This document shows, piece after piece, positions 757 to 17,103 of a stretch of DNA of 26,386 nucleotides (position 1 is its first letter; every line of letters starts with the position of its first letter). Position numbers and translations under genes: made by a program. The stretch is from a virus: IMG/VR virus record IMGVR_UViG_3300046003_005393, positions 1 to 26,386 of that record, one strand, 5' to 3'. The notes below the pieces were generated by a model. The model searched no databases and was not told the DNA's origin. It saw nothing but the letters and a program-made list of their open reading frames with translations.

Positions 757-3700
757 TTATTCGAAGCTTTGATTGATCGCTACCTTGTTGTGAGATATTA
801 GACCATTAGATATGTAAGTATGAGCGTCTTCAATTTCAAACTTAATAACTGTACCAGTTCCAATAGATTCGATATTAGATATCGTTCTATCTTCAATATA
901 ACCTTTAATAGATTCGCCTACAGTTAAAGCATATGAACGTTTCCATTCATCATTTGCCATTAAGAATTTATGTGAGTCAGATACTGTGATGTCTGTACCA
1001 TCAGTAAATGAGATTTTCAATTTCTCTTCGACTATAGGAGTTGCTTCCATGATTTTGAAGAAACCAAATTCTTTAGTAGTTTCATGCATTGTATATACAG
1101 TATCACCTACACTAAGTGAACCTGCAAGTACTGCTAATTCTTCAGTGATGTTAATTGGTGTCATTGGATCTGGACATCCACCTCCACCTCCACGTCTACC
1201 TCCATTTCTTACGATAGTGTCTCTAGAAGTTCTAGGAGTTACAACCTTAATTGTTTTAGATAGATCATCTAATGCGGCTTCGAAAGTTCTAACCGGAATG
1301 TCTTTAGTGATTAGAGATTTAGAGTAATATCTAGCAGTTACTTCGAGATCGAAAGAGAATCTTTCTTTATCGAGAGGGTTTACATATACGTCAATTCCTA
1401 TAGTTTTTGTGTATTCTAAATTAGTAGAACTATTTGAAGATTGTAAGCCAGCAATATTACCAAGACCTGCAGAACCAGTACCGAAATAATCTGTCATACG
1501 ATATTGGAATGTTATAGGGATAGTTAAAGCATTAGCATTTCCAAATTGTACATCTTTATATGAAATAGCATCTGAACCATTAACAATCAAATCTGTATGA
1601 GAATTTGGATTGACGAATAGGTAAGCACCTACGGATGCAGGACCTATCAAGAATTGATCGGACGAAGAGAAACCAATCTTTCCGTAAGAATCAGAAGTAG
1701 CGCCAGTGTTTCTGAAAAATAAACCGGTTTGTATATTTGATCCCGTAGAACCTTTCGAGATATTAGAAAGAATAGAATTTCTAACATATCCAGAAACAAC
1801 TGTAGATATAGTAGTTGTTGCACCAGCACCTTCAGTTATCCAAGAAGGGATATCCGGGTGATCAGTGTGTATGAATATCTGAGAATTGAATGTGTTAGTT
1901 ACGAATGTAGAACCTGCTGGAATCACATTAGTTGGAGATACACCACCTCTCCAGATAAAATCGGATGATGAAGAAGGTCCAGTGTAAGACGTTAATAAAT
2001 TCACTGTAGCTAGATATTCAATTTCAGAGAGTGTATTAGCAGTAGAACCAGTGAAAGTAGAACCAACTATGTATTGTCTAGAATTTTGAATTCCGTATGT
2101 TGCTCCTGCTGCAGTATTGCTATATAAGTTTCTAGTTCCATCTACCGAAGTGTATCTAGAATTAATAAATTGACCTGTAACTTGAGACGATTGCTGTGGT
2201 GTAGTTCTAATGAATCCATAAGTTGCAATATCATTTGAATCAGGGTTTGACAATCCTAAAGGTACAAAATCATATCTTCTTAACCTATTATAATCAGTAT
2301 CATTCAGATTATAATTGGTACCCGAAGCCCAAGAAGAATTTATTTTCGTATATTTTGAACCGTAGAATCTAGAGTATAACTCTAATACTGAGGCAGCATC
2401 ATTGCTAATTTTAATGAAGTAATTCTTAGTAATGATTACACCCTTCTTAATCGGAAGAGATGAGACTTGATCTCTATAATTACCTGCAAAAATACGTATA
2501 GTTGAGTTATTTTCAACTGTATATTCTTGACCTTGGTCATCGACAATTCGGATAGAAATACTTCCTTTTGCATTTGCAATAAGAGCTCTAATATTAGCTA
2601 ATTCAGAATCCATTGCAGTTAACTTATCGAAAAGATTGATAATGTTATTTTCTGGAGTTAAGAATCCAGAAGCAACATGTACAGCATCTGTGGTATAAAA
2701 ATCACCATTTTGAGATATCGTATAGTTAGATACCTTATCAAGACTCATAACTACTAATTCTGCTTGAAGTTCTACTTTTATTTGTTCTTTCTTAGCTTGT
2801 TCAACGATAGAATTAGCATCAGGGATAGATTCAAATTTAGCTGGAAAATCGACCTTAACAATTTCAGACCAAGTTGATTCAAGGGGAGTAACCGGCCAAC
2901 CTGCTTCAGAAAGAGATTTTATACGGAATTCAACACCTTCACCTTGTTGGATTGGGATATCAATTTGATTAATATTTACTACGTCTGCATTTTCAACATC
3001 ATCCACGGCCCAATTTGCAATACCTGTAGCAGGATCTATTTGACGAGCTCTAATTTCAGATTTATATTCAACCCAAGATGCGAATGTACCTCGTCTTTGT
3101 TGTCCGTCATTATCAACGAAGCCGATTTGTTGAGGTTGATTAGCTGAGCCATCTTTCTTAACATAACGATATTGAATAATGAATTGAACAACTTCTTGAG
3201 GTTTTGTTCTATCTGATGTTTTTGCATCTGGGATAGGAAAGAAACCTCTAAGTCTATATTTAGGTGTTAGATTTTCAACTGATTCCGAAGCAGCAATCTT
3301 ATTGATATCGTCTATAATAGAAGCATATAATGAAGATTGTCTTCCTCTTTCATCGATTAACTTAGACAATTGATTGTTATCTGTGTCTTGTAGCTTTTGT
3401 GATGAGTATCTAGTAGTTTGTATTTTTGTACGTATTTCGGAAATAGCTTTATCTGATGCAGATACTTGTGATTGTACACGAAGCTTATCTGCTTGCAATT
3501 TTTGTAGATTAGATAGAGAACCTGATGATGTTAAATGTTCATTAATTTGAAGAACTTCAAAGTTAGCTGGATTTAAAACTGGAGCATCTGGAACGATACC
3601 AAATATCGATGGTGGCGTTTTATCTTTTACTGATGAGTAAAGGAATGCACCGAAGTCAACTACTTCATTTTGATAGAACGTAGCAAGAGATGTCGTTGAT

Positions 3701-4794
3701 CCGTTACTAGGATCTACGATTTTTAAATTATTTGTATATAGACCTACACCAGGAGACCAATTTACTGATTGTATTCTAGAATCAGGATCGATAGGTTTTA
3801 CGAAAATTACACAATATTCATTGAAACCGATATTTACTTCTGCATTAACTTCAGCTTTTTCTTCACCGTAAAATGAAAGAACGTTTTTTCCGATTTTGAT
3901 TGCATCAAAACCTTCAACTAATTCAACTGATACCGTTCTAGTAGAAGCTTCAACATCAAGGATTCGATATCTTGTGTTTTGTCTTTGACTATTAACAACT
4001 AGAGAATCTCCAATTTTAAGTGAAGAAGTTCCTAAATATCTTGATTGATTATCGTTATATGATAGCTTATCTAATTGTACTCGAAGAACTCTTTTTTGAA
4101 CAGTAGCATTATTTACTGTAGAAGTGAGAGTATCATCGAAAACATTAGTAACTGTAAAGTCTCCGAAGTATCTTAAAGTTCTCGCAGGCATATCGATCAT
4201 TTCTCTATCTAAGAAATATGTTATACCGTTATCAAGAAGTACTTGTACGAAGTCTTGATAAACTATATCTGATTTACCTGAGAATCTATCATTGAAGATT
4301 CTTACCTTTTCTGCACTATCAAGATTTAGGATGTAACGAGCTACTTCAATTTTTTCAGTTTCATATTTGATCTGATTTGATAAATTGAAGGAAACATAGA
4401 GTAGAGGATTCATGAAAGATTCAAAGAACCAGTTTTCTCTTTTATTGAATGTCGTAGGAGCAGGCATTTGTTTAATGTCAGCTGCTTCTTTTTGTAAAGA
4501 CGATACTAGAATTTTTCTAAAAGTTCCATCTGAAAGTTGAATAGAAGATGTTGTATCTCCTACTCCAGATAAACTTTTAATATCTTGTTCCATTCTTACG
4601 AGCTGATTCTTTAGTGCTCCATATGAAGGGACGTATACTTTTTGAATTACTCCATTTCCGTCCATAACATCAACTTCAACAGTATCGGCATTGGATGAAA
4701 CTACGTCAGAGAGTTTCGTAATTATTTGATAACCATTGTTTTGTAGCTTCAACATATTGTTGAGCAAAGTAGTTAATGAGTATTTAGTTTGCAT
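757..4794 (-). CDS. Giant baseplate/tail structural protein with C-terminal Hint (intein-like) domain
   Basis: This 1345-residue protein is the last complete gene of the wedge/fibre block. Residues about 1-420 form a mixed N-terminal body. Residues 425-500 are rich in charged heptad-like sequence and probably coiled coil. Residues about 509-651 resemble a fibronectin type III domain (QFIIQYRY early, then VEFRIKSLSEAGWP and STWSEIVKV). Residues about 700-1195 are rich in Ser, Thr, Asn and Gly, as in fibre shafts. A glycine/arginine-rich linker then leads to a Hint domain from Cys1207 to Asn1336, followed by a 9-residue tail. The start ATG lies one base after the TAA of the upstream gene, consistent with coupled translation. 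Its role as a peripheral baseplate or fibre-attachment protein is inferred from position and composition. The Hint domain assignment is stronger than the structural role. Confidence 0.85.
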   Translation of the reverse strand: MQTKYSLTTLLNNMLKLQNNGYQIITKLSDVVSSNADTVEVDVMDGNGVIQKVYVPSYGALKNQLVRMEQDIKSLSGVGDTTSSIQLSDGTFRKILVSSLQKEAADIKQMPAPTTFNKRENWFFESFMNPLLYVSFNLSNQIKYETEKIEVARYILNLDSAEKVRIFNDRFSGKSDIVYQDFVQVLLDNGITYFLDREMIDMPARTLRYFGDFTVTNVFDDTLTSTVNNATVQKRVLRVQLDKLSYNDNQSRYLGTSSLKIGDSLVVNSQRQNTRYRILDVEASTRTVSVELVEGFDAIKIGKNVLSFYGEEKAEVNAEVNIGFNEYCVIFVKPIDPDSRIQSVNWSPGVGLYTNNLKIVDPSNGSTTSLATFYQNEVVDFGAFLYSSVKDKTPPSIFGIVPDAPVLNPANFEVLQINEHLTSSGSLSNLQKLQADKLRVQSQVSASDKAISEIRTKIQTTRYSSQKLQDTDNNQLSKLIDERGRQSSLYASIIDDINKIAASESVENLTPKYRLRGFFPIPDAKTSDRTKPQEVVQFIIQYRYVKKDGSANQPQQIGFVDNDGQQRRGTFASWVEYKSEIRARQIDPATGIANWAVDDVENADVVNINQIDIPIQQGEGVEFRIKSLSEAGWPVTPLESTWSEIVKVDFPAKFESIPDANSIVEQAKKEQIKVELQAELVVMSLDKVSNYTISQNGDFYTTDAVHVASGFLTPENNIINLFDKLTAMDSELANIRALIANAKGSISIRIVDDQGQEYTVENNSTIRIFAGNYRDQVSSLPIKKGVIITKNYFIKISNDAASVLELYSRFYGSKYTKINSSWASGTNYNLNDTDYNRLRRYDFVPLGLSNPDSNDIATYGFIRTTPQQSSQVTGQFINSRYTSVDGTRNLYSNTAAGATYGIQNSRQYIVGSTFTGSTANTLSEIEYLATVNLLTSYTGPSSSSDFIWRGGVSPTNVIPAGSTFVTNTFNSQIFIHTDHPDIPSWITEGAGATTTISTVVSGYVRNSILSNISKGSTGSNIQTGLFFRNTGATSDSYGKIGFSSSDQFLIGPASVGAYLFVNPNSHTDLIVNGSDAISYKDVQFGNANALTIPITFQYRMTDYFGTGSAGLGNIAGLQSSNSSTNLEYTKTIGIDVYVNPLDKERFSFDLEVTARYYSKSLITKDIPVRTFEAALDDLSKTIKVVTPRTSRDTIVRNGGRRGGGGGCPDPMTPINITEELAVLAGSLSVGDTVYTMHETTKEFGFFKIMEATPIVEEKLKISFTDGTDITVSDSHKFLMANDEWKRSYALTVGESIKGYIEDRTISNIESIGTGTVIKFEIEDAHTYISNGLISHNKVAINQSFE
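787..1176 (-). other. Hint domain (mini-intein / bacterial intein-like), residues 1207-1336 of the 1345-aa protein
   Basis: About 130 residues at the protein C-terminus fit the Hint fold. The nucleophile Cys1207 opens block A (CPDPMTPI, then LSVGDTVYTMHETT). His1275 lies in the block B position (VSDSHKF, with Ser where Thr is usual). Block F reads EIEDAHTYISNG and block G ends SHN at His1335-Asn1336. The domain follows a GGRRGGGGG linker. The residue after Asn is Lys, not Cys, Ser or Thr, so the canonical trans-esterification acceptor is missing and cleavage or atypical ligation is more likely than ordinary splicing. There is no room for a homing endonuclease. C-terminal Hint domains after glycine-rich linkers and ending HNK are a known layout on phage tail proteins; their purpose is not settled. 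Confidence 0.88.
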
Positions 4795-4795
4795 C

Positions 4796-6871
4796 TTATC
4801 TTATTATGTCTATGTTAAATGTGTAAATGTTCTCGTCTGTACAGATAATTTCTAATATTGGACGAGAAGACATTATCATACCTGGAGTTATTGAACCTAT
4901 TATCTTACCGAAAATTCCTTGTCCAAATTTGTTCGTAGAATCGGTTTTAATATATATCGTGTAGCCATTTAGGTCTATTTCATCTGCAAATACAAATCTA
5001 AATGTTTGTCCTTTTTTCCAAGCTACTGGATTGTCATCGATGTTAATTGTTAGATTATCATCAAATACTTCTACACCAGTTTGTGTATCAATATTAGTAT
5101 GACCTGTACTAACCTGTCTGAAGTAATTAGCATATTTTCCTAAAGTGATAACGTTATTATTGTTAGGGTCGTTAGGATTTATTCCATTTCCAGCTATACT
5201 TACCAAGGATCTTTGTGGGTTCGATAAAATTGCAGAATTTGAACAAACAGCAAAGTTATTGTAAACTTGATTTTTGTTTAGAACTGTAACTTGATTCGGT
5301 ACAGATCTATCTAACATAATTCCATCACCTTGTTGTAAGACGTTGGTATTGTAAGTCAAATTAACTGAAAGATTTCCAGATAGAATTTGATTAATATTGT
5401 CTGCATTAACGTTAATTAAGTCGATCAGTGTTGTACTAGAAGCGAATGCTAATTTAGCATTATTTAAACTCGTTTCTAAGTCAGATAACCTTTGAGCAAT
5501 ATCTGTTAATTGCTGTTGTGTGAATGTGAAGTTTTCTAGAGTTTGTATTCTCTGTTTTAGATCGATGATATCTAACTCAGTGTCCATGAACATTGCAGCT
5601 GCTTCTTGCATTCTAGTAGAAGCATCGATAAACAAGTCCATTGAGAATGTGTTATAATCATTGATGATTGTTTCGACTCCTGAATTTGCAACAGTTGAAT
5701 CGAATTTAATATCGATCTTTAAACTATAACCATTACCGTTAAGTTTAGTTACTTTATTCGGTTTAAATTTATCAAATCTCTTAAGATAAGAATTACCTGC
5801 AGGTGCATTAACATAATCGTCTAAAATTAATATCCCATACAGATTTGTAGCTTTTTCACCAGAATTTGAAGCTGAATAAGTATCGTAATAAACTAAGGCA
5901 GCATTAAATGTAAAGTCAGATGCAGCATCAGTAGCATTAAATTCAGTTAATGACGATATCGTACCATCATTAAGAATTGGTGCATAAGAGTTTTCATCAA
6001 AATCTAATATTGCTCCATCCATTCTAGAAATTAGAACTGGCTTAGATGCACTTGAACTTGGCAATTGAGCATTACCTAACCAATTAGTGATTGCACCAAA
6101 TATTGAATTTGATTGATAATCGTTATTTGTATCATAATCATAGTATGCTAATAAACTCATACCACTTGGATGTATAGATCCAGAATCTCTACCAGCAATA
6201 TAAGGGTTACCGTTAGTCCAAACTCTTCCAGGGCTATAATTTGGATCTTGAAAAGTTTTCCAAAGAACCAGAGGAGTATTTCCGTGCTGAGTAGGAATAT
6301 TGATATAAACTTCTGAGTATGCATGTCCACCTCTAGAAACATTATTTACTACATCAATGTCACCAATATATTGAACGACTCTTTTATAATATTGTGTAGG
6401 ATCTTCTTCTGTATAACGATTTCCTGGGTATGCTTCAGCAGCTGTTGCATTTCTAAAACGAATAGCATTTATTTGTGCCATCCATTTCCAAAATATACGT
6501 TCGGAAACTGTATGTAATTGAGTTGGATCGTAAGCTTGTGCAAGAGTATTCGTACCTTGAAGAATCTCTTCTTCAAAGTTTAGCACATAATTTTGAAATG
6601 ATTGAGCAAGATTTACATTATTGTCAGATAGTAAAGAAGGTACAGAAGATACTCCTCCACCTAATTCAGCACCTAATGCTTCCCATACGATATAGTTTTC
6701 TTTATTTCCAGTAGGAGTAGCAACATCAGGTATGTTAAGCAAAGCAAACTTAGAAAAAACAAATCTAGCATCATCATCGGTAAAAGTCTTTTGAATGTCT
6801 TTTACTGCAGATGAAAATGTATAGAAAGTCCCACCTTGTACTCTAAGAGGATTTATTAGCGGTGTTGCCAT
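4796..6871 (-). CDS. Putative baseplate/tail structural protein, 691 aa
   Basis: The 691-residue product starts MATPLINPLRVQGGTFYTFS. Residues about 120-230 include an aromatic-rich stretch (ERIFWKWMAQINAIRFR, later VQYIGDIDVVNN and AYSEVYINIP) that looks like a conserved virion core. Residues about 425-475 are predicted coiled coil with regular hydrophobic spacing (DLKQRIQTLENF, then LSDLETSLNNAK). The C-terminal 200 residues are Asn-rich and beta-prone, as in fibre or whisker proteins. It has no signal peptide, membrane segment or recognisable enzyme motif. It lies between a small fibre-like gene and the Hint-containing giant protein, 17 bases after the former and one base before the latter. 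I take it to be an oligomeric baseplate-rim or fibre-connector protein. I recall similar proteins among large-phage structural genes but cannot name a defined family. Confidence 0.8.
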   Translation of the reverse strand: MATPLINPLRVQGGTFYTFSSAVKDIQKTFTDDDARFVFSKFALLNIPDVATPTGNKENYIVWEALGAELGGGVSSVPSLLSDNNVNLAQSFQNYVLNFEEEILQGTNTLAQAYDPTQLHTVSERIFWKWMAQINAIRFRNATAAEAYPGNRYTEEDPTQYYKRVVQYIGDIDVVNNVSRGGHAYSEVYINIPTQHGNTPLVLWKTFQDPNYSPGRVWTNGNPYIAGRDSGSIHPSGMSLLAYYDYDTNNDYQSNSIFGAITNWLGNAQLPSSSASKPVLISRMDGAILDFDENSYAPILNDGTISSLTEFNATDAASDFTFNAALVYYDTYSASNSGEKATNLYGILILDDYVNAPAGNSYLKRFDKFKPNKVTKLNGNGYSLKIDIKFDSTVANSGVETIINDYNTFSMDLFIDASTRMQEAAAMFMDTELDIIDLKQRIQTLENFTFTQQQLTDIAQRLSDLETSLNNAKLAFASSTTLIDLINVNADNINQILSGNLSVNLTYNTNVLQQGDGIMLDRSVPNQVTVLNKNQVYNNFAVCSNSAILSNPQRSLVSIAGNGINPNDPNNNNVITLGKYANYFRQVSTGHTNIDTQTGVEVFDDNLTINIDDNPVAWKKGQTFRFVFADEIDLNGYTIYIKTDSTNKFGQGIFGKIIGSITPGMIMSSRPILEIICTDENIYTFNIDIIR

Positions 6872-15933: not shown

Positions 15934-17103
15934 TTACATAGCAAAATCAACTTTTTTAGATTCTTTATCAATCTTTGTGATTCTTACGTCAATTTCTTGA
16001 CCTACTTCTAATTCATAATCTTCACTTAAATGTGATTTATGAAGGAGACCTACGATTTTTGGTTCAAGTTCGATGAATACACCGTATCTTACGATTTTCT
16101 TAACTTTACCTGTTACCGTAGAAGGAACTTTATATCGAGATTCGATATCATCCCAAGCTGAAGGTTCAATTGTGATAGGTTTTTGTGATAAAACGATTTT
16201 GTCGTTATCGATAACTTCTTTAACGAAGAATTTGATTGCGTCACCTGGACGAATCTTTTGATTGTCGAAGTTATCAAGATTCTCAGCGAGAATGTCATTT
16301 CTAGAGATAAGACCTGTTAAGCAGCTATTAAACTCGGCAAAGATACCATGACGACTACATCCAGTAACAAATCCTTCGTATTCAACTCCGGCTTGTAATT
16401 CTGAAATAGTTTGTGGTACAAGGGCTTTAAGATATTCTCTATGAGAAACAACGATGTAGTTTTTCTCTTTCGAGTAATTGATTGGCATAACGTAAAGTGA
16501 TTTTCCAATCAACTCTTCGAAGTTTACCAATTTGTTCATACCACCAAGTGATCCTGGCATGAAACATTCTACTCCTGCAACATCTACGAAATAACCACCA
16601 TGGATTAGTTCTTTTACTGTACCTAAGTAAGCAACCGGATTACCGATAGAAGAAAGTAATTCTTCTCTTTTCTTAGCTACGATGTTTTTAGAATATGAAG
16701 CAATAATGCTATATGAGTTAGAACCATGCGTAGTTCCAGTTTTTTCAATGAGTACCTCGATCGGGAATCCAGGTTGAATGTACTTGAGGAATTCAGGGTT
16801 CTCCTTTCTCAATTCTATCATTGCGTCTTCTCTCCAATTAACGTCGACCATCGCATAATCTTTGTTAATTGAAACTACTTTACCTTCAACTACGGAACCG
16901 GTTTTAGGTTCAACTAAGTGAGATAAAGATCCATTGTACAATTCGTAAAGTTCTTGAGCGTAAGGCTCTCTACAGAAAACTTTAGATGTATCACCTGGAT
17001 GTCTTTTTACTCTTGGGTTGTGTTTTTTGTGATTTGGAACAGATGCTTCAAATAAGTCCCAATCAAATTCGCCAGAGGCGTTGAAGTAATTTTCTTCAGT
17101 CAT
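15934..17103 (-). CDS. Phage-encoded ribosomal protein S1 homologue (four S1 domains)
   Basis: This 389-residue protein contains four S1 RNA-binding domains: about 69-139 (VVEGKVVSINKDYAMVDVNW), 155-227 (GTVKELIHGGYFVDVAG, then CFMPGS and YIVVSHREYLK), 238-308 (YEGFVTGCSRHGIFAEF, then GLISRND) and 326-389 (VTGKVKKIVRYGVFIELEP, then GLLHKSHLS). Domain 2 has the V-x-x-x-x-x-GG-x-x-V-x-x-x-G-x-x-x-F-x-P-x-S pattern of genuine ribosomal S1, rather than a generic S1-fold RNase. Bacterial S1 usually has six domains in Bacteroidota (about 600 aa), so this form is shorter. The N-terminus contains FDWDLFEA (13-20), close to Bacteroidota S1 proteins. S1 recruits structured or Shine-Dalgarno-poor mRNA to the 30S subunit. 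A role in favouring phage mRNAs is inferred. It is the only translation gene in a tail operon. Confidence 0.92.
   Translation of the reverse strand: MTEENYFNASGEFDWDLFEASVPNHKKHNPRVKRHPGDTSKVFCREPYAQELYELYNGSLSHLVEPKTGSVVEGKVVSINKDYAMVDVNWREDAMIELRKENPEFLKYIQPGFPIEVLIEKTGTTHGSNSYSIIASYSKNIVAKKREELLSSIGNPVAYLGTVKELIHGGYFVDVAGVECFMPGSLGGMNKLVNFEELIGKSLYVMPINYSKEKNYIVVSHREYLKALVPQTISELQAGVEYEGFVTGCSRHGIFAEFNSCLTGLISRNDILAENLDNFDNQKIRPGDAIKFFVKEVIDNDKIVLSQKPITIEPSAWDDIESRYKVPSTVTGKVKKIVRYGVFIELEPKIVGLLHKSHLSEDYELEVGQEIDVRITKIDKESKKVDFAM

Follow-up and report, generated by a model that had tools for sequence, protein, structure and literature searches.

Type A BIL domains are Hint domains that by definition end in His-Asn (HN) without a nucleophile at the following (+1) position; their splicing is weak, with ligation proposed to proceed through a freed alpha-amine (PMC4031507), and in the accessible parts of their descriptions cleavage products predominate (PMC4031507; PMC7664689). 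For BIL2 of Tetrahymena, the accessible text of PMC8616854 describes splicing with an isopeptide bond at a lysine epsilon-amine, and conjugation of the ubiquitin-like domain to lysines on other proteins.

Here we analyze a Hint domain and its relatives, starting from a stretch of viral DNA of 26,386 nucleotides (positions 1-26,386 of IMG/VR record IMGVR_UViG_3300046003_005393), which as a whole is called the window below. Like type A BIL domains, as far as the available text of PMC4031507 and PMC7765530 describes them, the window Hint has a Hint fold, Cys1 and a C-terminal His-Asn with no Cys, Ser or Thr at +1, and like them it occupies a variable part of a non-conserved protein, in this case as an optional C-terminal module found in 0/88 orthologue loci. 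The phage family differs in adding a conserved lysine at +1 to +3, a rule absent from the accessible type A BIL descriptions, and in its location on tail proteins, often at the extreme C-terminus after a glycine run. By the features compared, namely the C-terminal His-Asn without a +1 nucleophile and the variable location, the window Hint would work like a type A BIL domain; 2lwy was the one bacterial BIL compared, by profile and fold.

BIL2 of Tetrahymena BUBL1 (PDB 6Y75, 6TMM) is the best or tied-best PDB profile match, matches the model in fold at Z 19.6 and likewise has a glycine before Cys1 (RGG motif; partial text of PMC9200820). It lies between ubiquitin-like domains of a eukaryotic precursor, whereas the window Hint lies at the end of a phage tail protein, and its acceptor lysine is in the downstream ubiquitin-like domain rather than at +1, unlike in the phage family, where HN and the lysine are 1-3 residues apart. 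Class 1 phage mini-inteins (Corynebacterium phage terminase inteins, gp41-1) have the fold and blocks A, B, F and G in common with the window Hint, and the terminase inteins align over exactly residues 1207-1336 of the window protein; those examined, however, carry Thr, Ser or Cys at +1 and interrupt enzymes, while Hint-less relatives of the window protein have no C-extein. The toxin-type Hints encountered in myxobacteria mostly end in VHN with residues other than Lys next to it, and about 66-131 residues of C-terminal sequence come after them. Hedgehog/Hog proteins are not known to undergo HN-dependent C-terminal cleavage. They have a sterol-recognition region after the Hint, according to the accessible text of PMC7765530, and the window Hint, with nine residues after HN, falls outside their definition. 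We found no description of the lysine rule, or of a C-terminal phage tail Hint with such a lysine, in the literature searched, which was mostly without subscription papers and preprints.

A complete Hint domain at the end of a tail-region protein

The Hint-carrying gene of the window encodes a 1345-residue protein and belongs to a minus-strand cluster of tail/baseplate genes. Residues 2-809 match phrog_29329 (E 1.2e-148). Of 40 phage records with a tblastn match, 31 contain the protein body, including phages PAU, pT24, PTm1/PTm5, MA9V, MaF61 and Lak as well as megaphage records; the remaining 9 records were Corynebacterium terminase inteins, whose match was confined to residues 1207-1336 (E 3e-8 to 2e-7). 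For the AlphaFold model of the body (mean pLDDT 72.7, pTM 0.42), the best Foldseek matches were a phage baseplate chain, at E 1e-4 and a TM of only about 0.1, and other tail-tip chains, mixed with receptor fibronectin-like chains. Also within the cluster, the gene at 15934-17103 (-) encodes a 389-residue protein that resembles ribosomal protein S1 and has RNA-binding domains of the S1 type (PF00575, E 3.5e-28). The features are as follows.

757-4794, minus strand: Hint-carrying 1345-residue tail/baseplate-region protein (phrog_29329, function unknown)
1177-1191, minus strand: five-glycine run G1202-G1206 directly before the Hint; predicted thioester at Gly1206-Cys1207
787-1176, minus strand: Hint domain C1207-N1336, 130 residues, without homing endonuclease insert
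1174-1176, minus strand: Cys1207 (C1), predicted N-S acyl shift nucleophile; 55/55 family members
970-972, minus strand: His1275, block-B histidine; 55/55 family members
787-792, minus strand: His1335-Asn1336, predicted Asn cyclization site; 55/55 family members
784-786, minus strand: Lys1337 (+1), proposed acceptor; Lys at +1 in 43/55, at +1 or +2 in 54/55 family members
760-786, minus strand: nine-residue C-terminal tail KVAINQSFE, without counterpart in the aligned Hint-less relatives
Cluster, minus strand: baseplate wedge (phrog_219)
Cluster, minus strand: hub-like genes (phrog_37871, phrog_430)
Cluster, minus strand: gp25-like wedge subunit (phrog_43)
Cluster, minus strand: adaptor (phrog_211)

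The C-terminal part of the protein reads ...RRGGGGG-C1207PDPMTPI...VSDSH1275KF...EDAHTYISNGLISH1335N1336-K1337VAINQSFE(stop). Translation of 757-4794 (-) placed C1207-N1336 exactly at 787-1176 with nine residues remaining, just as the original prediction had it, and its proposal of a Hint with Cys1207, His1275 and His1335-Asn1336 at the extreme C-terminus was borne out by tblastn, AlphaFold2 and VIA-align. The AlphaFold2 model of the Hint, built with 26 family sequences, had a mean pLDDT of 90.1, falling below 50 in model residues 140-145 (1340-1345, the end of the tail). Comparing this model with solved inteins, BIL domains and a Hedgehog Hint in VIA-align 2 gave Z values of 14.7-19.9 (SspDnaB mini-intein 6frh, 19.9; Tetrahymena BIL2, 19.6; gp41-1, 18.6-19.1; Clostridium BIL 2lwy, 18.6; Hedgehog 1at0, 17.2), near-tied values that tell of the fold only; together with the model confidence they put the Hint assignment far above chance. 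Searching the PDB with the family profile returned Tetrahymena BIL2 (E 7e-13) and the Spl DnaX mini-intein (8e-13) as tied best matches. The Pfam Intein_splicing match of the window Hint lay below cut-off, and Pretoxin HINT (PF07591) was matched by 19/26 family members. With its Hint fold, N-terminal nucleophile and block-B histidine, the window domain belongs to the HINT superfamily, and judged by sequence and model it is a complete Hint with intact predicted catalytic residues at the extreme C-terminus.

A T-x-H-E motif occupies Hint positions 29-32 (window 1081-1092; T1235, H1237, E1238), the three residues being present in 53, 51 and 51 of 55 family members, respectively. We know of no T-x-H-E motif in ordinary inteins. 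H1237 and E1238 were considered as a BIL2-like zinc site and rejected, as they could not be matched to the BIL2 zinc ligands in the alignment.

A lysine follows the terminal His-Asn across the viral family

Hint-based scans of viral contigs yielded a family of 55 distinct full Hints (E <=1e-16; one locus, L127, removed by hand). C1, the block-B histidine and both residues of HN were each present in 55/55, so that the loss of a key residue in relatives, which the original prediction had considered, did not occur at the family level. The residue at +1 was Lys in 43 of the 55 and Cys, Ser or Thr in none (0/55). Lysine stood at +1 or +2 in 54/55, and the remaining Hint (L148) has it at +3. When the first 40 residues of the tails were shuffled in 2000 trials, the number with Lys at +1 or +2 averaged 11.4 and never exceeded 21. 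The 55 Hints are related, so these counts are not independent events, and shared ancestry accounts for part of the conservation; grouped by identity, Lys at +1 or +2 held for 36/37 clusters at 80%, 29/30 at 60% and 11/12 at 45%. A profile ending at the Asn, with the tail excluded, also yielded 54/55. Among 12 weaker matches (E <=1e-3), 5 had Lys at +1 or +2 and 5 had Cys, Ser or Thr at +1. A slippery-codon origin of the AAT-AAA junction was set aside, since Lys at +2 follows varied +1 codons and both Lys codons occur. By these counts the lysine after HN is a conserved feature of the family and not an incidental one.

The original prediction held that the protein lacks an acceptor nucleophile and is processed otherwise than by ordinary (class 1) splicing. 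The latter agrees with the +1 survey; of the former, the lack of Cys, Ser or Thr at +1 stands, but a lysine conserved within two residues of HN in 54/55 relatives may itself be the acceptor rather than a missing one.

The Hint is an optional module at the gene end

We read the C-termini of orthologues of the window protein at 88 loci (8 phage records and 80 viral contigs, the latter being 80 of 476 relatives kept), 3 of which end at a contig edge. A Hint-profile scan of all six frames found no Hint at any of the 88, and these orthologues end near the point where the window's Hint begins. The window protein was compared with its Hint-less relatives at the protein ends only. One more carrier, L089, came from the Hint-based search: its body is 90.2% identical to that of Hint-less L022 and 50.4% identical to the window protein, and its Hint and tail are 65.5% identical to those of the window. 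Aligned as DNA, L089 and L022 differ as one block that takes in the final codons of the body, Hint and tail plus some 60-70 nt downstream, and homology picks up again just before the next gene; L022 shows no C-extein in this alignment, and no Hint was found elsewhere in its 134-kb record. This joint block of difference points to gene-end replacement rather than clean intein insertion at this locus, the one case aligned, and the Hint thus lacks the class 1 feature of interrupting a continuous extein. From these comparisons the Hint appears as an optional 3'-end module of the gene, swapped in and out. Taken with Lys1337 and the 0/55 count of Cys, Ser or Thr at +1 in the family, the replacement rules out an ordinary intein, and by sequence the window Hint is not a class 1 intein.

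Spread across host proteins and purifying selection

By body similarity the hosts of the viral Hints fall into 27 groups, a rough clustering in which some ORFs are partial. One annotated host is homologous to tail assembly protein I of lambda (phrog_32, E 7e-54) and another is a tail fibre protein (phrog_5616, E 1.6e-88); other annotations are to collagen-like fibres and to a fibre protein of the tail tip, and many hosts are without annotation. Insertion sites are Gly- or Pro-rich linkers. Among the 21 short-tailed members, defined by at most 20 residues after HN (one, L236, is cut by the contig end), 17 as scored have at least two glycines in the last four residues before C1, one C1 being misassigned. 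Some tails are tiny (FK; LKPRD; ATKL).

Hint pairs that are 85-92% identical sit in flanks of little or no similarity (for example L118/L110, dS 0.10); in five pairs of that subgroup, local scores were 300-337 for the Hint, 8-37 upstream and 8-9 downstream, and two pairs with a common host retain similar flanks. Pairwise matches start at the Cys codon and extend to about the Lys codon, which is AAA or AAG; the cassette spans C1 to about the Lys. Across 31 close Hint pairs dN/dS was 0.02-0.53, below 1 in all, so the Hint is under purifying selection.

Several loci carry further Hint-like segments. At L138 (G002) two adjacent tail genes (1064-3397 and 3718-6414) end in different Hint types, one a collagen-like fibre with the K-less tail VYATLQCEI and the other a 906-residue ORF with KLLFNR. 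Directly after the first Hint, L117 has a second Hint-like segment (GGGGGCVALESF...) and L095 a degraded-looking segment, GGGSVWVEAY.... L196 (Lak-A1, 393646-399086) has a 159-residue frame with a Hint ending HN-SGTNF and, in table 11, a stop five residues on. Lak phages recode TAG, so this frame may continue.

Tail fibres, myxobacterial prophages and control inteins

When a collagen-like tail-fibre family was sampled by host body, 20/40 loci had a Hint, in 2 of these 20 (L267, L268) in another gene of the locus. There, an 881-residue ORF contains a distant Hint followed by KVAPEPPNNDRP, with Lys at +1. Among distinct Hint-bearing fibre C-termini, 10/11 had Lys at +1 or +2; the exception, L277, belongs to another clade and ends in a nine-residue tail, VYATLQCEI, without Lys. 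Four lysine-bearing rows (L261, L262, L271, L279) group with a helicase intein and Pedobacter Hints on a branch that has 97% support and is separate from the main family, and well-supported branches require at least 4 changes of the Lys label on a tree built by a quick method from few columns. The lysine has thus probably been gained or retained more than once on tail proteins. In another host family a Hint was present at 2/80 loci, both with the identical tail IKMQGFDMGNQQSF. The C-termini of host families 3 and 5 are variable, and the C-terminal part of one family 5 locus (L284) reads KVIHYFGNKFSLMVYKLIAYKKIRKKK, perhaps an out-of-frame Hint region.

In bacteria, 41/193 relatives of one myxobacterial genome matched the Hint. 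Of the 23 distinct tail-type Hints of myxobacterial prophages (E <=1e-19, from 44 loci), 21 had Lys at +1 or +2 and two had it at +3 (ATKL); one of the 23, L374, has Thr at +1 (TKNED). Of ten weaker matches, mostly toxin-type, only 1 of the 9 with HN had Lys at +1 or +2. Six myxobacterial genomes carry two Hint genes 4.6-4.9 kb apart; at L404 the pair lies on either side of a J-like central fibre gene (phrog_31), one of the two being I-like and the other a third gene.

Control phage inteins in terminase, helicase and other genes had T, S, S, C, C, S and C after HN in the 7 of 9 loci that served as controls, the other two being a Lys-bearing cassette (L200) and a C-terminal Hint with Thr (L201). 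Searching cultured phages by tblastn with several Hints matched mainly enzyme inteins, and one search gave no match; among named phage records, the uncultured MT835519.1 (L200) shows the cassette most clearly. Escherichia phages ES and AN_ECEAS (L366/L367) were rejected as carriers, as their annotation resembles an intein-split helicase. Upstream of a gene labelled helicase/SSB they have a short gene, annotated as minor tail protein or hypothetical, with an intein-like N-terminal part, which is probably a misannotated intein-split gene.

A proposed mechanism and its alternatives

The reading we favor, tentatively and at a little under even chances, is that the tail protein carries an active, self-processing, type-A-BIL-like cassette whose short C-terminal tail supplies a conserved lysine as acceptor. 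Cys1207 would attack the Gly1206 carbonyl to form a thioester; the Gly carboxyl would pass to the tail lysine instead of a Cys, Ser or Thr side chain, either straight onto its epsilon-amine or, once released, onto its alpha-amine; and Asn1336 would cyclize, freeing the Hint. The products would be a free Hint and a tail protein whose terminal glycine run is linked to the lysine tail by an isopeptide or peptide bond. Its parts differ in probability: that the Hint is competent for autoprocessing is very likely, the acceptor role of the lysine comes close to an even call, and an isopeptide form of the linkage is rather doubtful. An alpha-amine mechanism requires no lysine. A lysine that stays within three residues of HN, at a variable place and with variable residues after it, agrees with an amine acceptor that is long and flexible; the varying place (+1, +2, +3) is compatible with a long side chain but does not amount to precise active-site geometry. 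A lysine that speeds Asn cyclization or acts in the finished tail would fit too, and it could be a structural, electrostatic or product residue instead of a nucleophile. Also against an acceptor role speak the other-clade Hint L277, whose tail has no Lys, the acceptor lysine of BIL2, which lies in the downstream domain, and the Hint-less relatives, which manage without any such tail.

The main rival is double autocleavage without ligation, in which cuts at Cys1207 (with hydrolysis of the thioester) and after Asn1336 would leave a 1206-residue, glycine-ended form, the Hint and tail being discarded. Type A BIL domains yield mostly cleavage products in the accessible accounts (PMC4031507; PMC7664689), some tails are tiny, as listed above, and the Hint-less orthologues stop close to that point, which implies that a protein trimmed there would work. 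This scheme nevertheless leaves unexplained why a lysine lies within three residues of HN in 55/55 viral and 23/23 myxobacterial tail-type Hints, and we regard it as unlikely. Quite improbable, in our estimate, is intermolecular cross-linking, in which a lysine on an adjacent virion protein or subunit, perhaps in the lysine tail of another copy, would attack the Gly1206 thioester and fasten tail parts covalently. That the Hints occur on tail and fibre proteins, that paired Hint tail genes about 4.6-4.9 kb apart occur in six myxobacterial genomes, and that Tetrahymena BIL2 conjugates to lysines of other proteins (PMC8616854, as far as accessible) agree with it; however, a same-chain lysine beside HN is the obvious acceptor, attack in trans would not require an invariant HN for release, only one Hint each was seen in the phage fragment of the window and in a phage record of 373 kb, and the 0/88 orthologue loci with a Hint imply that cross-linking is not required.

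The Hint might also be a selfish or drifting mini-intein relic that brings the phage no benefit and is tolerated because of its place in a disordered end or linker. Sporadic presence (0/88, 20/40 and 2/80 loci fetched for three host proteins), the lack of a homing endonuclease, spread across 27 host groups and insertion in Gly- or Pro-rich linkers would suit such an element, but its catalytic residues and lysine are (nearly) invariant and dN/dS is below 1 in 31/31 close pairs, so the Hint is not decaying, and in the one case aligned (L089/L022) it does not interrupt a continuous protein as a precise insertion would. We give this reading little probability; since a selfish active element would still need the proposed chemistry, it overlaps with the lysine-acceptor explanation.

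Implications

A bolder version of lysine-acceptor processing, somewhat unlikely as it stands, is that phages possess a mobile, ATP-independent, ubiquitin-like conjugation unit, a Hint cassette in which a lysine 1-3 residues after HN is part of the active set and intercepts the Gly-Cys thioester through its epsilon-amine. If true, this would give an isopeptide-branched C-terminus of the tail protein in cis, or covalent locking to neighbours in trans, and would amount to lysine-mediated protein splicing, with origins on tail proteins in two or more lineages of Hints. If the processing is cleavage only, the family would still be an actively maintained phage tail module with a strict sequence rule to explain. 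If the lysine is the acceptor, the family would represent a natural variant of splicing or ligation that needs no Cys, Ser or Thr at +1, a direct test of BIL joining without a side-chain thiol or hydroxyl, and a small (about 130 residues), compact ligation tool; for the phages themselves, it would be a post-translational maturation step in their tails, widespread in environmental phages and myxobacterial prophages.
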